64,000 nucleotides of DNA, from assembly GCF_003668575.1 (NCBI RefSeq), contig NZ_RCVZ01000002.1, forward strand, positions 62,001 to 126,000, in the 5' to 3' direction. This DNA comes from Falsibacillus albus. Its GTDB lineage: Bacteria > Bacillota > Bacilli > Bacillales > DSM-25281. Of the stretch, positions 13,781-63,090 are shown in pieces (the first letter of the stretch is position 1; each line of letters starts with the position of its first letter). Below the pieces are notes generated by a model. The model made no database searches, had not been told where the DNA came from, and saw only the letters and a program-made list of their open reading frames with translations. The position numbers and the translations under genes were made by a program.

Positions 13781-14836
13781 TTATCTTTCGACGAGCGGAG
13801 ACTTTACATATGCCAATAAGAGCTTTTCCGTATGATAAATGGAAGTTTCATGCGTTCGTTCAAAAGCATGGGATGCCTCAATGCCGGGACCGATCAATCC
13901 ATGGATGATGTCGAATCCTGCCCGTATTGCCGCGGATGCATCCGATCCATAATACGGGTAAATATCGACTTTATATTCCACTTCATTCTCCTTTGCGATT
14001 TCAATAAGTTTTTTTCGCAGTCCATAATGATAGGGGCCGCTTGAATCCTTTGCACAAATGGAAACTGTATATTCGTCAGAGTTTTGACCGTCTCCCAGAG
14101 CTCCCATATCCACTGCTAAATATTCGACCGTTTCAGGGGTGATGTTTGAGTTTCCGCCATATCCGATTTCTTCATTATTTGAAATCAAGAAATGTGTTGT
14201 GACAGGCAGTTCGATGTTTTCCATTACGATATGGCGTATAAGTTCCAAAAGAATGCCTACACTCGCTTTATCATCCAGATGGCGTGATTTGATGAACCCA
14301 CTCTCCGTCACCTGAACCCTTGGATCGAATGAGACAAAATCACCTTCCTGTATGCCCAATCTCCTTACTTCATCAGCGCTGGATACTTTTTCATCGATCC
14401 TGACTTCAATATTTTCATCGTTGCGAGGGGCATCACCCGCATTTTTATAAACGTGGACAGAGGTTTGATGCATCAATATGGTTCCGGTAAAGATCTTCCC
14501 TTCGTGCGTCTGTATCTCACAATATTCCCCTTCCACCGAATTCCAGCGAAAACCACCGATCATAGATAACTTCAATCTTCCTGAAGGTGTGATGCTTTTC
14601 ACCATGGCTCCAAGTGTATCTACATGAGCGGTCAACATCCGGTGCCGGTTATCATCTTGACCGGGCAGCGTGATGAGCAGACCGCCCTTTCGATTCCTCT
14701 TCATTTCAATGGATAAATCCGACAAAGAATTTTCTACAAATGAAATGATTTTCTCGGTATTGCCTGAAGGACTTGGAATCGATACAAGTTTTTTTATCAT
14801 GTCAATCGTATTACTGCTGTTTGGATATGTATTCAT
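13781..14836 (-). CDS. M42-family metallopeptidase (YhfE-like)
   Basis: 351 residues. Metal ligands and motifs of the M42 (glutamyl/deblocking aminopeptidase) family: H71-V-D, H-L-D-D-K-A-S, N-N-E-E-I-G-Y-G-G, V-D-M-G and the late H of G-I-E-A-S-H-A-F-E-R. These are dinuclear, often dodecameric cytosolic aminopeptidases; many are annotated as endoglucanases by mistake. GGGGGAAGG precedes the ATG. The upstream region carries TATAAT at about 14866 on the minus strand, a likely -10 box. Confidence 0.92.
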   Translation of the reverse strand: MNTYPNSSNTIDMIKKLVSIPSPSGNTEKIISFVENSLSDLSIEMKRNRKGGLLITLPGQDDNRHRMLTAHVDTLGAMVKSITPSGRLKLSMIGGFRWNSVEGEYCEIQTHEGKIFTGTILMHQTSVHVYKNAGDAPRNDENIEVRIDEKVSSADEVRRLGIQEGDFVSFDPRVQVTESGFIKSRHLDDKASVGILLELIRHIVMENIELPVTTHFLISNNEEIGYGGNSNITPETVEYLAVDMGALGDGQNSDEYTVSICAKDSSGPYHYGLRKKLIEIAKENEVEYKVDIYPYYGSDASAAIRAGFDIIHGLIGPGIEASHAFERTHETSIYHTEKLLLAYVKSPLVER

Positions 14837-15512: not shown

Positions 15513-15555
15513 CAAAGAAGCTGATTCATCATGGAATCAGCTTCTTTAAAATTTT
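15513..15555. terminator. Bidirectional terminator
   Basis: AAAGAAGCTGATTC / GAATCAGCTTCTTT perfect hairpin with flanking A and T runs between the OsmC gene (plus) and the Maf gene (minus); the Maf stop codon lies inside it. Confidence 0.85.
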
Positions 15556-17391
15556 TTCATGTGTTTCGGTTAAGTCTTTTGCGATTTCCATGGCATATTC
15601 GAAGCATTTCATAACATATTGCTCGATTGCATCCACCATTTCACTTTTTTGAAGATGAAAACGGTCGATCTCTTTGGCACTCTGCATTTTATTTGTAAAC
15701 ACCTCATAACCTAAAGCATTGACTTTAGTGATAAAAACTCGATAAAATTCATTTTTGTTCATTTCCTGTAAGAGTTGGTTCGTTTTATTTAGCCAAGTAT
15801 TGATTTTTTGAATAGATTTACGCTGAGAAATCATAGATTTATTTTTTTCCAGATTTTTTGTGAAGTCTTTTTCCAAATCTAAGAATTCATTCATTTTCTT
15901 TTCCATCTGCTCCATTTGCTTGATCAACGTTTCCTTATCATAAGGAATCCCATCCTTTATCCTCCAGTCTGTATCATCAATTCTTTTCATCAGACGATTT
16001 TCCATTAAATGATCCAATGCAATAAAGTCAGTACCTTTAATATTGGCTCCGCCTTTTGTGGTATTGATTGTTTCTACATTGAATTTTTCAATATACTCCT
16101 CCAGTAAAATCCTCATTTCATGAAAGGTGGGATCCGTGGTGATCCAATTCCCTTCTACATCTTCGACCAACATCTTTCCCTGAGCCATTTCCTCATCGGT
16201 CAGTTTTGTATCACGCCATTCGTATGAGATCCCTTCGGCATAGTATTGCCCTTTTCGAAAAGCTAAATTTTGCCCGACTAAAATGATCGGGCTGCACCCC
16301 AGCCTTGCCAGCGTTTCATAGGTGAAAATGGCGATCGAATAAGCATCATTGACTACATCCGGTTTTCTTCCCCCCTCTTTGATCAAGTAGGATTGTGAAA
16401 CGACATCTTGTGAAGTTATCACATGATATTTCTCGCCTGGGTATTGTTCAAGTGAATCCCTGTATATACTCGTTCCATAGATGATCGGGATGGTCGAAAT
16501 GTTATTTTTGACAATTTCCTCAAAAACATGGACATTTGCCCGCTGCGGCTCAAATGAACATACAGCATCCGGATAAATCTCATTTTGTACAAGCGCGCGG
16601 TTGGCAGATCCAACCGCAAAGATATACGCTAGTTTCTTTTCCTTGATGCTGCGAAGATTTTCCAGCTCATCTTGCAGCGAAGGACCCGCTGAAACGATGA
16701 TGGCAGGCTTATTTTGAAAATGGCGTTTTTTATCCAGGATGGCTTCTGTATCAATCGTTGTGGGGAAGTTTCCTATTGAATTTTTGATCCAATTCAACTG
16801 ATTGATTCCTAGGGTCGATAAATTAATTCCTTTTTTATTGAACGAGTTCTTTAAGCATTGAATAAATCCAGAATAATCATCTGGAAATTTCTTCTCATAG
16901 CTCGGCAGCGGGATCACCAGGACCCTTCCCCCTATCACCCTTGCGACTTCATCGGTTATTATCGATATATCCTCTCCTATTGGAAGGAAAACGCCTTTAA
17001 GGTGCTTGTTTAGAAACGGTGATACACTCCGGTTATTCAGAAGGAGATAAAAAACCTCTTCAAAAGGCTCAAAAATCGTAAACTCATTGTTGGGGAACAT
17101 CCTTAAAAATTCTTCTATATGATAGCCCATGCCCATTCCCCAAAATATAACATGTGTTTCTTCATTTATTTTAGCTGATTGTTCCTCGATGATATTTTGC
17201 GCCTCTTCTCTCATGGCTTCAAATCTATGGATATACCATTGCTCGGATGCGTACCTACATACGATGTTTTTCTCGTTTTCAACAGACCAAGCCATTTCAA
17301 ATTTCCCAAGCGGCTCAAATTCGAACATATGATCAACTAATGCAGGATTACAAAAATGTGTAAGAAGAATTAAGTTCTCTTGAAACATCAT
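15529..17391 (-). CDS. maf: Motility accessory factor (Maf, DUF115) putative nonulosonic acid transferase
   Basis: 620 residues. The middle part (~200-420) is the DUF115/MptE-like domain with I-V-S-A-G-P-S-L-Q-D-E and F-A-V-G-S-A-N-R-A-L; the N-terminal ~190 residues are the usual Maf domain (W-G-M-G-M-G-Y-H, F-E-P-F-E-E-V-F); the C-terminal 130 residues are helical and charged. Maf proteins attach nonulosonic (pseudaminic or legionaminic) acids to serine/threonine of flagellin in the cytosol. It is divergent from the six-gene nonulosonic acid operon, which supports that role. No flagellin gene is in the window, so the acceptor is unknown. Confidence 0.88.
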   Translation of the reverse strand: MMFQENLILLTHFCNPALVDHMFEFEPLGKFEMAWSVENEKNIVCRYASEQWYIHRFEAMREEAQNIIEEQSAKINEETHVIFWGMGMGYHIEEFLRMFPNNEFTIFEPFEEVFYLLLNNRSVSPFLNKHLKGVFLPIGEDISIITDEVARVIGGRVLVIPLPSYEKKFPDDYSGFIQCLKNSFNKKGINLSTLGINQLNWIKNSIGNFPTTIDTEAILDKKRHFQNKPAIIVSAGPSLQDELENLRSIKEKKLAYIFAVGSANRALVQNEIYPDAVCSFEPQRANVHVFEEIVKNNISTIPIIYGTSIYRDSLEQYPGEKYHVITSQDVVSQSYLIKEGGRKPDVVNDAYSIAIFTYETLARLGCSPIILVGQNLAFRKGQYYAEGISYEWRDTKLTDEEMAQGKMLVEDVEGNWITTDPTFHEMRILLEEYIEKFNVETINTTKGGANIKGTDFIALDHLMENRLMKRIDDTDWRIKDGIPYDKETLIKQMEQMEKKMNEFLDLEKDFTKNLEKNKSMISQRKSIQKINTWLNKTNQLLQEMNKNEFYRVFITKVNALGYEVFTNKMQSAKEIDRFHLQKSEMVDAIEQYVMKCFEYAMEIAKDLTETHEKILKKLIP

Positions 17392-17587
17392 TCAATCCAC
17401 ATCTCCCCATATTCCATAATTTCACTTTAACAATATTCATATGTTCGATTTTATGAATGGAATTTTTGAAACATGAAAACTCCAAAAATAAAGTACGAGA
17501 CCACTGCTTTTCCAAACGTTCTAAATACATCAGCAGTTTTGTATAACATATATAAGGGAAATTCCATTACTTCTTATAGGGGGAGCT

Positions 17588-18592
17588 ATGTTTAAAAACA
17601 AGCGGATTTTAATTACAGGAGGTACAGGGTCTATTGGCAGCGAGATTGTCAGGCAAGTACTCGAAAAATCCCCAGAAGTGATCAGGATATACAGCAGGGA
17701 TGAATCCAAGCACTTCCAATTGCAGCAGGAATTTGCCAATCATGAAAATATCCGGTTTCTTGTCGGGGATGTAAGGGATAAAGACCGCCTCGCCTATGCG
17801 ACTAAAGAAGTTGACATCATTTTTCATGCGGCTGCGTTAAAACATGTTCCATCCTGCGAGTTCAATCCATTTGAAGCTGTGAAAACAAACGTTCTAGGAA
17901 CACAAAATGTGATTGAAGCAGCCATCGCCAATAAAGTTCAGCGAGTGGTCTCAATATCCACTGATAAAGTGGTCAACCCAGTCAATACGATGGGGGCCAC
18001 CAAACTATTATCAGAAAAAATCCTAATGGCTGCTGAATTATATAAAGGCAATTCACCAACTAAATTTTCATGTGTGCGATTCGGCAATGTGATGGGATCA
18101 CGCGGTTCGGTCATACCTCTATTCAAAGCGCAGATTCAAAAAGGGCTGCCCATAACATTGACACATCAAAATATGACCCGCTTCATGATGACAATAAAAG
18201 ACGCAGCCACCCTTGTGCTTCAGGCAGCTGAAAAAGGTATTGGCGGAGAAACATTTGTCCTAAAAATGCCGATCATCAACATTCATGATTTAGCTGAAAT
18301 TCTACTTGAAGAGCACCTTTCAAATCATAGGAAGCATATCCATCCGGGCATCGTCGAAATTGGCATCCGGCCGGGAGAGAAGCTTCACGAAGAACTTATG
18401 ACATTGGAAGAGTCCGAACGTGCCTATGAGAGCAGCAGCATGTATATGATTTTACCAATCGGGCCAATGAGAAAGGAGATTCCCCCTGACTTTAAAAAAG
18501 CGAAAAGAAGAGCATATGTATCAAGTAAATCTGCTGCCATGAGCAAAGAAGACATTCGCAGCCTTCTTAGCCTAAAAGGATTTCTTGATTGA
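17588..18592 (+). CDS. legB: UDP-GlcNAc 4,6-dehydratase (LegB-type)
   Basis: 334-residue extended SDR enzyme: N-terminal NAD motif G-G-T-G-S-I-G, and S-T-D-K with M-G-A-T-K in place of the usual Y-x3-K. A Met at the Tyr position is known from WbpM/CapD/FlaA1-type dehydratases that keep C5 configuration, unlike PseB which has Tyr. It is the short soluble form without membrane helices. It would start the pathway by making the 4-keto-6-deoxy sugar. AGGGGGAG precedes the ATG. First gene of an operon of six with gaps of 8 bases or overlaps. Confidence 0.88.
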   Translation: MFKNKRILITGGTGSIGSEIVRQVLEKSPEVIRIYSRDESKHFQLQQEFANHENIRFLVGDVRDKDRLAYATKEVDIIFHAAALKHVPSCEFNPFEAVKTNVLGTQNVIEAAIANKVQRVVSISTDKVVNPVNTMGATKLLSEKILMAAELYKGNSPTKFSCVRFGNVMGSRGSVIPLFKAQIQKGLPITLTHQNMTRFMMTIKDAATLVLQAAEKGIGGETFVLKMPIINIHDLAEILLEEHLSNHRKHIHPGIVEIGIRPGEKLHEELMTLEESERAYESSSMYMILPIGPMRKEIPPDFKKAKRRAYVSSKSAAMSKEDIRSLLSLKGFLD

Positions 18593-18600
18593 GGTGAAAC

Positions 18601-19302
18601 ATGAAAACGATAGCGATCATCCCTGCCCGCGGAGGCTCTAAAGGACTGGTAGGGAAAAACCTATTATCATTGAACGGAAAGCCATTGATAGCCTATACCA
18701 TTGAAAGTGCAATCAGAGCTGATATATTCGATCAGATCATCGTGACGACAGATAGTGTGGACATTCGCAGGACTGCAAATCAATATGGTGCCTCCACTCC
18801 TTTCCTTCGTCCGGAAAGGCTGGCAACCGATACCGCTTCGACCATCGAAGTAGTGCAGCATGCAGTAGATGAATATTTTTCAGGGGCGCAGCATCCATTC
18901 GAAAAGATATGTGTAATCCTTCTTCAGCCCACCTCTCCCCTTCGGACCAGCGATCACATAAAAGAGGCTTTTTCTTTATATATCGAAAACAAAGGCGTTC
19001 CTGTCTTGAGTGTGTGTGAAGCGTACACCCATCCACTGTTGCTGATGAAGGTTGAGAATAATCGGATAATGAAATACAGCCCTCATTCATCAATCAATCG
19101 TCGTCAAGATTTCCCACCATTGTACCAGTTGAACGGGGCCATTTATATTTCTGACTCCAGCTTGATTTCGCAAGGATATCTCTACAAAGACTTAGCAATC
19201 CCTTTCTTTATGAAAAAGGAAGATTCGATCGACATCGATGATGAGCTGGATTTCCAACTTGCCTCTTATGTTTTAACCAAACGGAGTGATCAACATGTTT
19301 AA
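18601..19302 (+). CDS. legF: CMP-nonulosonate cytidylyltransferase (CMP-legionaminate synthase)
   Basis: 233 residues of the NeuA/PseF/LegF family: I-I-P-A-R-G-G-S-K-G-L-V-G-K-N at the N-terminus, then L-Q-P-T-S-P-L-R and a D-I-D-x-E-x-D metal-binding motif near the end. It activates the sugar acid with CTP. The ribosome site GAGGTG overlaps the legB stop codon, so translation is coupled. Substrate is inferred from the neighbours; the protein alone could also be called NeuA or PseF. Confidence 0.88.
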   Translation: MKTIAIIPARGGSKGLVGKNLLSLNGKPLIAYTIESAIRADIFDQIIVTTDSVDIRRTANQYGASTPFLRPERLATDTASTIEVVQHAVDEYFSGAQHPFEKICVILLQPTSPLRTSDHIKEAFSLYIENKGVPVLSVCEAYTHPLLLMKVENNRIMKYSPHSSINRRQDFPPLYQLNGAIYISDSSLISQGYLYKDLAIPFFMKKEDSIDIDDELDFQLASYVLTKRSDQHV

Positions 19303-20329
19303 GATAGGTAATCGACTCATCTCCAAAGAATCACCTGTCTATGTGATTGCCGAGATCGGGGTAAATCATAACGGATCGGTGGAAATGGCTGAGAAGTTGA
19401 TTAAAGCCGCACACTCAGCCGGGGCTGATGCAGTGAAATTCCAAACTTTCAAAAGCAATAAACTGGTCAGTAAACATGCCAAAAAAGCATCCTATCAACT
19501 GCGTGATCCTTCACCTGGTTCGTCGCAGCATGCAATGCTGACAAAATTGGAGCTTGATGATGACCAATTCATCCGTTTAAAAAAACATTGTGATTCCCAT
19601 GGGATTGAATTCCTTTCCACTCCTTTTGACAGTGATAGTGCTGATTTTTTATATAAGACGGGGGTCAAGGCATTTAAGATCGGATCGGGTGACCTGACTA
19701 ACATCCCTTTATTAAAAGAAATAAGCACCTATGGAATTCCCATCATCTTATCAACAGGGATGGCGAACCTTGCCGAAATTGAAGATGCGGTTCTAGCGAT
19801 CGAAAATAGTCCCATCGCTCTTTTACACTGTACTTCAGCTTATCCTGCCCCCATGGATGAATTGAATCTATTGGCAATCCCTGCTTTGCAATCGGCATTT
19901 CACCTGCCAGTCGGATATTCCGACCATTCAGATGGCTGTGAAGCGGCGATTGCCTGTGTTGCATTAGGTGCACAAATCATTGAAAAGCATATTACATTGG
20001 ATCGATGCTTACCTGGCCCCGACCATATGGCATCACTTCCTCCAAAAGAATTTGAATCATATGTTAAATCGATTCGAACCATTACAAAAAGTTTAGGCAG
20101 CGGACGAAAACAATGTACGAGTGCAGAATCAGAAATCCGGGATATCGCGAGAAAAAGCTTAACAACTTCAGTCAGTATCTCGAAGGGGCAGATCCTTTCT
20201 AAAGAACATCTTGTCTGCAAACGGCCGGGTACCGGAATTCCGCCAAAATACCTTTCCAAAATAATTGGGAAAGAAGCAAAAATGGATTTTCATGAAGATC
20301 AAACACTCTCTTGGGATGACATATTATGA
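19295..20329 (+). CDS. legI: N,N'-diacetyllegionaminate synthase (NeuB family)
   Basis: 344 residues. NeuB barrel with V-I-A-E-I-G-V-N-H-N-G, K-F-Q-T-F-K-S, S-T-P-F-D and H-C-T-S-A-Y-P, followed by a C-terminal SAF (antifreeze-like) domain from about 285 (K-R-P-G-T-G-I). It condenses a 6-carbon N-acetyl sugar with phosphoenolpyruvate to the 9-carbon acid. The ATG (GGAG 8 nt upstream) overlaps the legF end by 8 bases; a GTG nine bases earlier is less likely. Confidence 0.9.
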   Translation: MFKIGNRLISKESPVYVIAEIGVNHNGSVEMAEKLIKAAHSAGADAVKFQTFKSNKLVSKHAKKASYQLRDPSPGSSQHAMLTKLELDDDQFIRLKKHCDSHGIEFLSTPFDSDSADFLYKTGVKAFKIGSGDLTNIPLLKEISTYGIPIILSTGMANLAEIEDAVLAIENSPIALLHCTSAYPAPMDELNLLAIPALQSAFHLPVGYSDHSDGCEAAIACVALGAQIIEKHITLDRCLPGPDHMASLPPKEFESYVKSIRTITKSLGSGRKQCTSAESEIRDIARKSLTTSVSISKGQILSKEHLVCKRPGTGIPPKYLSKIIGKEAKMDFHEDQTLSWDDIL

Positions 20330-21483
20330 CCAGAAAAATCACAAAAATCTGTGTGGTTACAGGTACACGGGCAGATTATGGAATCTATATCCCCCTTTTG
20401 GAAAAATTGCAGATCCACCATCGATTTGAACTGTCCATTTTGGCAGCAGGCATGCACCTGTCCCCTGCCCACGGGCACACAATAAATGAAATAAAAAGGG
20501 ATGGATTCAATATAACCGGGAAGGTTGATACGATCCTGATCAATCATACAGAGGGAAATATGGCAAAATCCATCGGTATGGGGATCCTTGGGATGACACA
20601 GCATTTTGAAACACAACCTCCAGATCTTGTTATCATTTTGGGTGACCGTGGAGAAATGCTTGCCGCTGCCATCGCTGCTGCTCACCTTAATATCCCGGTT
20701 GCACATTTGCATGGAGGGGAAATATCCGGGTCCATCGATGAGAGTGTCAGGCATGCCATAACAAAACTTTCACATATTCATTTCCCCGCCACCAGCCAAA
20801 GTGCGGCAAGAATACAGAAATTGGGGGAGGATCCCTGGAGGATATTTAATGTGGGCTCTTTGCGGGTTGAACAGATTTTATCCGGCAATCTCCCCCTTTT
20901 TGAAACAGTCACTGAAAAATATTCACTTCCAATAACACCCAAACAATTCATTCTATATATATTTCATCCTGTTTCGTTTGAATGCGGCTCCATTCAAATG
21001 CAGGCAAGCTTGACATTAAAGAAAATACTAGCAAAGAATCTACCTGTCATTTGCATATTGCCGAATACGGATGCCGGTGCCGACGAAGTCATGATGGCTT
21101 ATCAAAACATTTCACATGATAATCAGGTTTTTTATATTAAAAATTTTCAACAAGCGGACTACTTGACCATTTTACAAAATGCTCGCTGTTTGATCGGCAA
21201 TTCTTCTTCGGGAATCATCGAAGCGGCTTCCTTTCATGTGCCCGTCTTGAATGTGGGAAGCAGACAGCAAGGCAGGGAACGGTCTGGAAATGTTATCGAT
21301 GTAACGCCGGATCCTGCTGACATTGAAAGTGGGATCGATTTGTTATTTAGTGCGGATTTTCAGAAAAAAGTCAATGAAGTTAGAAATGTATACGGTGCCG
21401 GGAAAACAACTGAAAAAATCATCAATACGCTTGAAAACATTGAAATCACCCCACAATTAACATCAAAGAGGATTTCTTACTAA
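20326..21483 (+). CDS. legG: Hydrolysing UDP-sugar 2-epimerase (LegG/NeuC family)
   Basis: 385 residues; GT-B-like epimerase with V-V-T-G-T-R-A-D-Y-G-I-Y, H-L-H-G-G-E-I-S-G-S-I-D-E and N-S-S-S-G-I-I-E-A. It removes UDP and inverts C2, giving the substrate of the NeuB-family synthase. Its presence, instead of a PseG-type hydrolase, is the main reason to call this a legionaminic rather than pseudaminic pathway. Start overlaps the legI stop as ATGA. Confidence 0.88.
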   Translation: MTRKITKICVVTGTRADYGIYIPLLEKLQIHHRFELSILAAGMHLSPAHGHTINEIKRDGFNITGKVDTILINHTEGNMAKSIGMGILGMTQHFETQPPDLVIILGDRGEMLAAAIAAAHLNIPVAHLHGGEISGSIDESVRHAITKLSHIHFPATSQSAARIQKLGEDPWRIFNVGSLRVEQILSGNLPLFETVTEKYSLPITPKQFILYIFHPVSFECGSIQMQASLTLKKILAKNLPVICILPNTDAGADEVMMAYQNISHDNQVFYIKNFQQADYLTILQNARCLIGNSSSGIIEAASFHVPVLNVGSRQQGRERSGNVIDVTPDPADIESGIDLLFSADFQKKVNEVRNVYGAGKTTEKIINTLENIEITPQLTSKRISY

Positions 21484-21488
21484 GCGAG

Positions 21489-22145
21489 GTGTGGAACATT
21501 TACGCTTTAATAGGAGCTGGCGGGCACGGAAAGGTCATTTTGGATATGTTAATCAGGAACAAAGAAGATGTCTTGGGATTTGTGGACGATTTTTCGGTTC
21601 AGCCCTCCTTAAAGGGATTTCCTCTCCTCGGAACTCTAAAGGATATCCCTGAACTGATGAGTAGGAATCCCGCCCTTAAATTCATCATTTCAGTAGGAGA
21701 TAATTTCACAAGGAAAGAAATATCCATTCAGCTCGAACCACTTTCGGTGAAATATGGGACCGCTGTCCATCCTACCGCTCATATCGGATCTGGTGCCGCA
21801 ATCGGGGAGGGCACGGTCGTCATGCCTTATGCAGTCATCAACACAGATGCTGTTGTCGGAAGCCATTGCATCGTCAATACCCACTGTGTGATCGAGCATG
21901 ACTGTAGGATTGACTCTTTTGTCCATGCAGCGCCTCAGACTGTTTTAACTGGCAATATCGGGGTACAGGAGGGAGTTCTGATTGGCGCTGGAGCGAGCAT
22001 CATTCCGGGTGTGACAATTGGAAAATGGTCGATCATCGGGGCAGGCTCGACTGTCATAAAGGACATTCCCCCTTATTCGAATGCTCTCGGTTCCCCTGCA
22101 AAAATATCTACAAGGAAAGGCGGCTTCGATATTGATGGCGTATGA
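21489..22145 (+). CDS. legH: Sugar N-acetyltransferase (LegH/PglD/NeuD family)
   Basis: 218 residues: N-terminal nucleotide-sugar binding part (I-G-A-G-G-H-G-K) and a left-handed beta-helix with hexapeptide repeats (I-G-E-G-T-V-V, V-G-S-H-C-I-V, catalytic-type H-x-x-x of N-T-H-C-V-I-E-H-D). It would acetylate the amino group added by LegC. The start is odd: GTG at 21489 is touched by its own ribosome site (GCGAGG), while an in-frame ATT at 21498 has ideal spacing (GAGGTG, then 6 nt). The ATT start would give the length usual in the family. I list GTG but this is undecided. Confidence 0.83.
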   Translation: MWNIYALIGAGGHGKVILDMLIRNKEDVLGFVDDFSVQPSLKGFPLLGTLKDIPELMSRNPALKFIISVGDNFTRKEISIQLEPLSVKYGTAVHPTAHIGSGAAIGEGTVVMPYAVINTDAVVGSHCIVNTHCVIEHDCRIDSFVHAAPQTVLTGNIGVQEGVLIGAGASIIPGVTIGKWSIIGAGSTVIKDIPPYSNALGSPAKISTRKGGFDIDGV

Positions 22146-23292
22146 TCGCATATACCTTTCTCCCCCTCATATGAGTGGAGATGAACAACAGTTTATTTCA
22201 GAAGCCTTCAGGACGAATTGGATTGCTCCATTAGGCAACAACGTCGATCAATTCGAAAAGGAAATATCAACATATGTCGACTCAGACTGTTCCCTTGCTT
22301 TAAGCTCCGGAACTGCTGCTATCCATCTGGCACTCAGGCTGTTGAATATTGAACGCAATGATATCGTGCTATGTTCAGCCTTGACTTTCATAGCAAGTGC
22401 AAATCCCATTTTGTATGAAGGGGCAATTCCAGTTTTTATCGACTCTGAGCCCGAAACATGGAACATGTCCCCGAGAGCATTGGAACGCGCCATTGAGCAT
22501 TACAGAAGAATCGGAGTTCTGCCTAAAGCTGTCATCGTTGTGAACTTATATGGGCAAAGTGCTGACTACAATGAAATCTTGGAGATTTGCTGCCGTTATG
22601 GGGTGCCAATTATCGAGGATGCTGCAGAATCTCTCGGTTCGATGTACCATGGAAAGAAAAGCGGGACATTTGGAAAGTTTGGCGTCTTCTCTTTTAATGG
22701 CAATAAAATCATTACTACTTCTGGGGGTGGAATGCTCGTTTCTGATGATCATGACCTCATCGAAAAGGGGCGATTCTTATCTACACAGGCCAGGGACAAA
22801 GCTCTCCATTATGAACATAGCCAGATCGGCTACAATTACAGGTTAAGCAATGTCTTGGCTGGAATTGGACGGGGGCAGCTTCTCCACATTGAAGAAAGGG
22901 TAAGGAAAAGAAGAGAAATTTTCAAGAAATATAAGCATGCCCTAGGATCTATAGAAGGCATCGCCTTTATGCCAGAACCTGAGCATTCAAGATCCAATCG
23001 ATGGCTCACAGCCATCCTCTTGGATCCGTCAGTTCTTTCTACCACTCCCATCGAGCTGATCGACGGCATGGAAAATTTCAATATCGAGGCACGTCCAATT
23101 TGGAAGCCGCTTCACCTTCAGCCAATATTTAAAAATAATCATTACTTTCCTCATGAAGAGGAACAAAGTGTATCCGCTCATCTTTTCAATACCGGTTTGT
23201 GCCTCCCATCAGGCTCATCGTTAACCCCCGTCGACCAGGATAGAATCATTGCAGCGATCAAAGATGTCCTTTCAAAAAAAATTCTTAAATGA
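22135..23292 (+). CDS. legC: PLP-dependent sugar aminotransferase (LegC, DegT/DnrJ family)
   Basis: 385 residues. S-S-G-T-A-A-I-H (cofactor phosphate), E-D-A-A-E-S-L-G (Asp to the pyridine N) and the Schiff-base Lys in F-N-G-N-K-I-I-T are all present. It would aminate C4 of the 4-keto sugar. The ATG start overlaps the legH end by 11 bases. Last gene of the operon, followed by a terminator. Confidence 0.88.
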   Translation: MAYDRIYLSPPHMSGDEQQFISEAFRTNWIAPLGNNVDQFEKEISTYVDSDCSLALSSGTAAIHLALRLLNIERNDIVLCSALTFIASANPILYEGAIPVFIDSEPETWNMSPRALERAIEHYRRIGVLPKAVIVVNLYGQSADYNEILEICCRYGVPIIEDAAESLGSMYHGKKSGTFGKFGVFSFNGNKIITTSGGGMLVSDDHDLIEKGRFLSTQARDKALHYEHSQIGYNYRLSNVLAGIGRGQLLHIEERVRKRREIFKKYKHALGSIEGIAFMPEPEHSRSNRWLTAILLDPSVLSTTPIELIDGMENFNIEARPIWKPLHLQPIFKNNHYFPHEEEQSVSAHLFNTGLCLPSGSSLTPVDQDRIIAAIKDVLSKKILK

Positions 23293-23295
23293 CTT

Positions 23296-23329
23296 AACTC
23301 ATTTCTTATCATGAAATGAGTTTTTTTAT
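23296..23329 (+). terminator. Terminator of the nonulosonic acid operon
   Basis: AACTCATTTC / GAAATGAGTT hairpin with a 7-nt loop and a T7 tail, three bases after the legC stop. Confidence 0.85.
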
Positions 23330-55606: not shown

Positions 55607-55640
55607 AGAAAAGGCCTGGCACCGAGCCAGGCCTTTCCAT
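55607..55640 (+). terminator. Terminator of yjbI-spxH
   Basis: AAAGGCCTGG / CCAGGCCTTT hairpin with a 6-base loop. Confidence 0.85.
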
Positions 55641-55856
55641 TTACGAACAAAGGGGATGGGAGAAATTTTTCACGGTCAAACAAAGGGGTATATGTTTGCT
55701 TGTGATCAACTTCACACTAGTAATATAGCATGTATGAACTTGTATTTGCAAGTGTATGTTAGTTATTTCACAATATTGTCAAAATCAATTAACAACATGT
55801 CTTCTTGCATTTATGCATATACATATACCATCAATTCATGTGGAGTGAATACGCAT

Positions 55857-62908: not shown

Positions 62909-63090
62909 AGTTTTCCACTGCAGAAGGCTCGCTTTCCGCGGGTTCTCACAGGAAGTGAGGTCGTTCGATTTTGGCACACGAACTGCCGAACTGAATCGAA
63001 CTTCCATCTTACCTCTCCTCGGTTTCACCTGTGGTATATCACCTGATCCGCCAATCCCTCTGAAGTCCTGAACCTACAACTGCAATCAAC
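62909..63090 (+). repeat. Dispersed palindromic element, copy 6
   Basis: TTTTCCACTGCAGAAGGCTC and CTTTCCGCGGGTTCTCAC at the left, GAACTGAATCGAACTTCC inside, CAATCAAC at the right end. Long form like copies 2 and 3. A short open frame across it is not a gene. Confidence 0.7.

Follow-up and report, generated by a model that had tools for sequence, protein, structure and literature searches.

A Maf-type glycosyltransferase gene facing a probable legionaminic acid operon in Falsibacillus albus

The window examined here, 64,000 nucleotides (nt) of the Falsibacillus albus genome (assembly GCF_003668575.1, contig NZ_RCVZ01000002.1, positions 62,001 to 126,000 of the forward strand), carries seven open reading frames at 15529-23292 in which the gene of a Maf-type glycosyltransferase on the minus strand faces a six-gene operon on the plus strand. 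We consider it likely that this operon makes legionaminic acid by way of uridine diphosphate (UDP)-linked intermediates, and that Maf places the sugar on flagellin. Judged by sequence, the cassette is of a kind that elsewhere in the order, across 299 sampled genomes, is accompanied by surface-glycan-type genes, and that is set against Maf only in this genus. An earlier interpretation of the DNA letters alone (the sequence-only reading) had described a Maf gene opposite six coupled genes, and all seven frames were found in place with matches to the expected families. The block running from an M42 peptidase gene through an OsmC gene, maf and the six genes to a POT transporter gene is conserved in the sister genome, G001, the only other sampled genome of the family; the arrangement is thus more than chance. 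Between the two, the flanking proteins are 69-90% identical, the six enzymes 54-69% and Maf 51%.

Beyond the 196-nt gap (17392-17587) that divides it from maf, the operon (17588-23292) encodes in turn a dehydratase, a cytidine monophosphate (CMP) transferase, a synthase, an epimerase, an acetyltransferase and an aminotransferase, with adjacent frames overlapping or separated by 5 to 8 nt. All six functions named by the sequence-only reading are present, but it had listed them in pathway order and the gene order differs. The first gene (17588-18592) encodes a putative UDP-N-acetylglucosamine (UDP-GlcNAc) 4,6-dehydratase of the PF02719 family (PseB/SpsM/PglF; 370 bits), which by family match, residues and tree stands in place of LegB. 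It is followed by a CMP-nonulosonate cytidylyltransferase of LegF/NeuA type (18601-19302; PF02348, 91 bits; 158 bits against the PseF model TIGR03584, below the cut-off of 206) and a nonulosonic acid synthase of LegI/NeuB type with an SAF domain (19286-20329; TIGR03569, 444 bits, over the cut-off), whose closest solved structure is SpsE (1vli, 221 bits), ahead of SiaC/NeuB (198) and PseI (172). A weak second match to NeuB on contig C1 (33 bits) may be a 3-deoxy-D-arabino-heptulosonate 7-phosphate (DAHP) synthase. The fourth gene (20326-21483) encodes a predicted hydrolysing nucleoside diphosphate (NDP)-diacetylbacillosamine 2-epimerase of LegG type, with leucine 105 before a GDR motif (NeuC model TIGR03568, 429 bits, over the cut-off), and the fifth (21489-22145) a NeuD/PglD-type acetyltransferase, LegH (TIGR03570, 219 bits, over the cut-off, with a PglD_N domain; top match in the PDB a perosamine N-acetyltransferase, 132 bits). 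The last (22135-23292) encodes a LegC-type pyridoxal phosphate-dependent aminotransferase, scoring 378 bits against LegC (TIGR04181, cut-off 420) versus 247 against PseC. From the sequence, its start is most likely the ATG at 22135, preceded by AAGGAAAGG, and not 22081, where the open frame begins. All six functions of a CMP-legionaminic acid pathway are therefore assigned within one operon, three of them (dehydratase, CMP-transferase and aminotransferase) to proteins below their NCBIfam cut-offs and above the Pfam cut-offs for broad families.

The identity of the sugar turns on the epimerase. It is the only hydrolysing epimerase over the cut-off in the host genome (4.49 Mb in 37 contigs), and no PseG exceeds its cut-off there (best 36 bits against 153.55), so that legionaminic rather than pseudaminic acid is supported as the predicted product, as the sequence-only reading had proposed. 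That reading had also named an epimerase acting on plain UDP-GlcNAc as the circumstance that would point to sialic acid instead, and here the tree and the residue before GDR speak for a different enzyme. The best match in the PDB is the diacetylbacillosamine 2-epimerase 5xvs (253 bits, with human GNE at 203), and in a tree of 22 rows (20 epimerases from the window and loci L040-L157 plus two PDB chains, loci fetched later being left out) the protein falls with 5xvs in a group of 16 that excludes GNE, L150 and four sialic-type rows (support 96/96). The residue preceding GDR is leucine in the window's epimerase and histidine in GNE and the four sialic-type rows; before an ADR in the same set it is isoleucine in L097 and valine in L150. 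The sample has 35 loci whose epimerase exceeds the cut-off, and all were retrieved and sorted into kinds with set score thresholds. Leucine precedes GDR in 28 of them and histidine in seven, and all seven histidine loci combine a synthase, an epimerase and a cytidylyltransferase and have neither a dehydratase nor an aminotransferase of the types looked for. Tree and residue 105 together support a predicted enzyme of the NDP-diacetylbacillosamine kind rather than NeuC. That the operon instead makes N-acetylneuraminic acid, the common sialic acid, we regard as highly improbable: the NCBIfam models over cut-off do bear the names NeuB, NeuC and NeuD, and Maf enzymes of Clostridium and Geobacillus are reported to accept CMP-N-acetylneuraminic acid (in the part of PMC11339370 available), but the dehydratase, the LegC-type aminotransferase and the acetyltransferase would then be idle, and the epimerase carries the wrong residue and groups with the wrong enzyme. 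Elsewhere in the sample, three clusters (L047, L064 and L183, in genomes G137, G221 and G138) have NeuB, NeuC and NeuA types with a histidine-GDR epimerase within 7 kb of a Maf gene and lack the dehydratase or aminotransferase kinds sought; they are candidate systems for decorating flagellin with genuine sialic acid.

The dehydratase is where the operon appears to depart from the usual legionaminic acid route, a point absent from the sequence-only reading. Its best-scoring curated model is PseB (TIGR03589, 359 bits, cut-off 408), and it scores only 81 bits against LegB (TIGR04180, cut-off 475); by sequence it is a PseB/SpsM-like protein and not the usual LegB. The predicted catalytic residues are T125, D126, K127, M135 and K139, and the protein thus shares the motif T-(x)9-M-(x)3-K described for SpsM, the enzyme that opens the legionaminic route of Bacillus subtilis and whose loss is reported to be rescued by PglF or Pen-Pal but at most in part by PseB or LegB (excerpts of PMC7439481). 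No full-length PtmE was found in the host genome (the best match covers the nucleotidyltransferase part only, at 30% identity), and PtmE, PtmF, PtmG and PtmA have no match inside the operon. Since an SpsM-like PF02719 dehydratase is present and no full-length PtmE was found, the pathway intermediates should, on these sequence grounds, be UDP-linked, which the sequence-only reading had likewise not stated.

Whether this enzyme keeps or inverts C5 bears on which sugar emerges. According to a review (PMC8987622, in part), methionine occupies the relevant position in the retaining PglF/WbpM and tyrosine in the inverting PseB, and the sample largely follows this division: dehydratases linked to LegG have methionine in 13 of 16 cases and tyrosine in three, and those linked to PseG tyrosine in 37 of 39 and methionine in two (L077 and L079). 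These counts draw on 104 dehydratases above 150 bits in L040-L157 and five from LegG loci (all with methionine); excluded were 55 with neither LegG nor PseG in the stretch (45 tyrosine, 10 methionine), L163 (218 bits, motif unread) and L174 (213 bits, methionine, at least about 8 kb away from an epimerase of sialic type). The three tyrosine enzymes beside LegG are L066, whose operon has its own LegB; L087, a second copy where the operon copy has methionine; and L149, which has a sialic-type epimerase and PseG at about equal distance. Methionine is a clue and not proof, because CapE, which inverts C5 (PMC7439481, in part), and the dehydratase/5-epimerase 4j2o carry it as well, and L077 has it beside PseG; all three tell against our reading of the enzyme as retaining, and methionine was set aside as proof of C5 retention on their account. 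They give some footing to the proposal that the dehydratase is C5-inverting like PseB, so that operon and Maf handle an epimer such as 8-epi-legionaminic acid, and the top curated model is indeed the inverting PseB, though below its cut-off. We think this unlikely. In a tree of 70 of the 104 dehydratases with the window's protein and four PDB chains, the window and sister enzymes lie outside both the FlaA1/PseB and the CapE/4j2o groups and nearest to LegG-linked methionine enzymes of uncultured lineages (L078 and L087), although the branch joining this wider group has a support of only 89/87. In a search of genome contigs with the dehydratase alignment, relatives reached at most 55% identity among the best 80 of 497.

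The favoured route to legionaminic acid would accordingly begin with 4,6-dehydration of UDP-GlcNAc with C5 kept, continue with 4-amination and 4-N-acetylation to UDP-diacetylbacillosamine, and pass through hydrolysis with inversion at C2; condensation with phosphoenolpyruvate and activation by CMP would then yield CMP-di-N-acetyl-legionaminic acid. Maf would move the sugar, in the cytoplasm and before export, to serine or threonine in the exposed part of flagellin.

The 35 epimerase loci place this cassette among its relatives. Seventeen are of a guanosine diphosphate (GDP) type, with a TIGR04180-like LegB and PtmE; all 17 lie in Maf genomes, with Maf within 7 kb of the epimerase in 14 and on another contig in the other three. 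The PF02719 dehydratase occurs in seven (the window, G001, G048, G241, G140, G112 and G181), and among these Maf stands alongside the cassette only in the window and G001 (L040), the two sampled genomes of this genus; G048 has its Maf on another contig and the other four have no Maf match. In a further ten the dehydratase and aminotransferase types searched for are missing (seven with histidine before GDR and three, L158, L161 and L163, with leucine), and one, in G160, is unclassed. G048 and G241 have the window's six functions in identical order, with two genes inserted in G048, and are 62-65% identical to the window in LegC and 60-63% in the dehydratase. Both adjoin a Wzx-type flippase, and G048 also a Wzy_C protein and a protein of the PF07388 polysialyltransferase family. 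The inserted genes of G048 (L168:10408-12091), for a formyltransferase and a PIG-L deacetylase, hint at a sugar variant with an N-formyl group. G112 and G181 encode proteins in which Capsule_synth or Glyphos_transf domains exceed the Pfam cut-off, and they have matches below cut-off to a BFO_1060-family glycosyltransferase model; G140 has proteins of similar size and start, judged by eye only.

The 620-residue Maf protein (15529-17391, minus strand) is the sole match to PF01973, the central MptE-like/Maf_flag10 domain, in the host genome (125 bits against a cut-off of 34.6), and its N-terminal domain matches PF20157 (27 bits against 23.5). A structure model built from nine sequences (mean predicted local distance difference test score 72.6, the C-terminal part of low confidence) superposes on the Magnetospirillum Maf structure 5mu5 over 524 residues with a Z score of 26.7 and a root-mean-square deviation of 8.2. 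In the 299-genome sample, 66 match this Maf, and a LegG/NeuC or PseG that passes the curated cut-off occurs in 63 of these 66 and in 28 of the other 233, a comparison uncorrected for kinship; the host genome likewise has the nonulosonic acid pathway and Maf together. Because of the predicted fold and this co-occurrence, the predicted role that the sequence-only reading gave to Maf, that of the nonulosonic acid transferase, is supported. Two features of the protein fit that role less well. The central domain of the model resembles archaeal HPPK (Z 15.4) and SteA (12.7) more closely than it does the sialyltransferase CstII (9.2), to which the Maf central domain has been likened (PMC11339370, in part), and in the Maf tree genomes of legionaminic and pseudaminic type are intermixed instead of clustering by donor, for which reason reading the donor sugar from Maf was rejected. 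The Maf protein alone, used as a query against genome contigs, found no relative. Elsewhere in the sample, seven Maf proteins (L041, L042, L044, L053, L063, L065 and L066) are about 940-970 residues long, some 320 more than usual, and group with L043 in the Maf tree (99/97); their genomes have PseG over the cut-off, and in five of the seven a PF02719 dehydratase gene lies directly upstream.

Flagellin is the best candidate for the acceptor, because Maf belongs to a recognised family of flagellin enzymes, the genome encodes flagellins bearing serine and threonine, and PF07388 has no match in it. Three flagellins (414, 590 and 1150 residues) have 19-28% serine plus threonine in their variable parts; in the largest (L038:10402-13854, contig C3), the variable part spans 920 residues and contains a single match to the PD40 beta-propeller repeat (E 6e-6). 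Maf is known from flagellin glycosylation. Elsewhere in the sample the genes keep company: in 37 Maf stretches, one per genome, selected mainly by score from the 65 other Maf genomes, a flagellin frame lies within the roughly 20-kb stretch in 34 and at 2.4 kb or less in 32. The three without one are the sister (none in 20 kb), L077, and L062, which lies at the end of a contig.

Several observations weigh against flagellin. The locus is on contig C2 and the four Flagellin_N matches of the genome are all on C3, in agreement with the sequence-only reading that no flagellar gene is near; the flagellin locus holds a candidate glycosyltransferase of its own (788 residues); G241, whose genome has no match to Maf, carries the same operon; and a scan with the sigma-D consensus found no site within three mismatches in front of the dehydratase gene, with maf preceded only by words that have three mismatches. 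This last point weighs little, because the same scan found no site within two mismatches before the 590-residue flagellin, fliD or flgL, against a one-mismatch site 5' of the 414-residue flagellin and a two-mismatch site 5' of the 1150-residue one. The candidate glycosyltransferase, which has a glycosyltransferase (GT) group 1 domain, belongs to a second sugar cassette adjoining the flagellin genes (L038:466-6839, C3), absent from the sequence-only reading, which also contains a short RmlA-like protein below its cut-off, an RmlB and a WecE-like transaminase over theirs, and GNAT and NeuD-type acetyltransferases. The transaminase is assigned to thymidine diphosphate (dTDP)-4-amino-4,6-dideoxy-hexose, and the cassette looks like a maker of dTDP-4-acetamido-4,6-dideoxygalactose (dTDP-Fuc4NAc) for flagellin.

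We keep a non-flagellin acceptor in view because the flagellins are distant and this second cassette lies beside them. Such an acceptor could be the spore surface, an S-layer or a wall glycan, an idea to which the genes adjoining the same cassette in relatives and the lack of a sigma-D-like site also lend themselves. The genome has a Spo0A domain, as fits a Bacillus-like spore former, and B. subtilis is reported to place legionaminic acid on its spore crust (PMC7439481, in part). Promoter comparison gives this acceptor no positive evidence: words of the form CATANNNT[AC] are scattered and their positions do not match in the sister, so that a sporulation promoter was rejected as a candidate and no conserved sporulation-type -10 site was found. 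What is conserved between the two species in the intergenic alignment is a candidate sigma-A-type promoter, TTCTAA-17 nt-TATAAC (17519-17547, plus strand), 40 nt upstream of the dehydratase gene and missing from the consensus scan because its first hexamer is poor; its conservation in two sequences suggests ordinary vegetative expression of the operon. A dedicated transferase for another acceptor was not seen either, PF07388 having no match in the host genome in a search that did not extend to BFO_1060-type, GT42, GT52 or GT80 enzymes, and the candidate transferase of G241 likewise giving none, in a search without a positive control. Together with the usual company of Maf and flagellin genes, this makes a different Maf target improbable in our view; of the two acceptors that the sequence-only reading had offered, flagellin encoded elsewhere stays ahead and the spore protein has gained nothing. 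Distinctly unlikely, too, is a more specific version in which Maf has departed from flagellin: fed by a constitutive surface-glycan-type UDP-legionaminic cassette, it would modify a surface or spore protein other than flagellin, and flagellin would be served by the dTDP-amino-sugar cassette and its 788-residue glycosyltransferase.

Around the locus, an OsmC-family peroxiredoxin gene and the POT peptide transporter gene form the flanks (Pfam and NCBIfam), and the M42 peptidase (13781-14836) has as its top NCBIfam match an NAGGN osmoprotectant peptidase (329 bits, below the cut-off of 398). Terminator-like hairpins lie between the OsmC gene and the end of maf (15514-15547, 14 pairs, no strand assigned) and, from a hairpin scan, 3' of the operon (23296-23322, plus strand), but the region holds a chance number of such hairpins (8 observed, 7.9 expected). 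As a signal of foreign DNA, the GC content of the operon (0.43-0.45, against 0.37-0.43 in the surroundings) differs too little for an argument. An RsaE/RoxS small RNA (55607-55715) and a Bacillaceae-1 RNA (62945-63011) in the window both fit a Bacillus-like spore former.

Legionaminic acid on flagella, transfer by Maf, UDP-linked synthesis and Gram-positive flagellin islands are all already described (PMC9298399, PMC7439481, PMC6137143, PMC5109656 and PMC13317340, each in part). Among the matches listed from open-licence literature (titles and abstract openings), none describes a PF02719-type legionaminic cassette with a Maf away from flagellin genes. Because legionaminic loci accompanying Maf are otherwise of the GDP type (17 of 17) and this genus pairs Maf with the other type, the locus suggests an exchange of nonulosonic acid donor cassettes between roles in surface glycans and in flagellin. 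It also offers two sequence clues, leucine or histidine before GDR in the epimerase for legionaminic versus sialic acid, and methionine or tyrosine in the dehydratase for legionaminic versus pseudaminic acid; if true, both would aid the prediction of nonulosonic acids from genomes.

Set beside known systems, the locus combines features of several. With the Campylobacter/Clostridium type of flagellin glycosylation, which runs through GDP and PtmE, it shares Maf and the LegC, LegG, LegH, LegI and LegF functions, but it has a PF02719 dehydratase in place of a TIGR04180 LegB, no match to PtmE, F, G or A in the operon, and its flagellins at a distance. The sps pathway of B. subtilis uses SpsG, a PseG-like protein, instead of a LegG-type 2-epimerase, and the species is not known to have a Maf. 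Common to both are the UDP-linked route, predicted here, the SpsM-like dehydratase motif and a synthase whose closest solved relative is SpsE, but the sps acceptor is the spore surface and its promoters are of sigma-K type (according to the available part of PMC7439481). The CMP-legionaminic route of Legionella pneumophila likewise has UDP-conjugated intermediates, a NeuC-like LegG and a NeuB-like LegI (PMC6137143, in part), but serves the O-polysaccharide of lipopolysaccharide, where the window has Maf as a neighbour. The legionaminic cassettes of G048 and G241 share its six functions and their order, but have flippase neighbours and no Maf in the stretch. The flagellin glycosylation islands of Geobacillus pair Maf with nonulosonic acid genes in Gram-positive spore formers, as the window does, but lie inside the flagellin locus (PMC5109656, in part), where the Falsibacillus genes stand on another contig.

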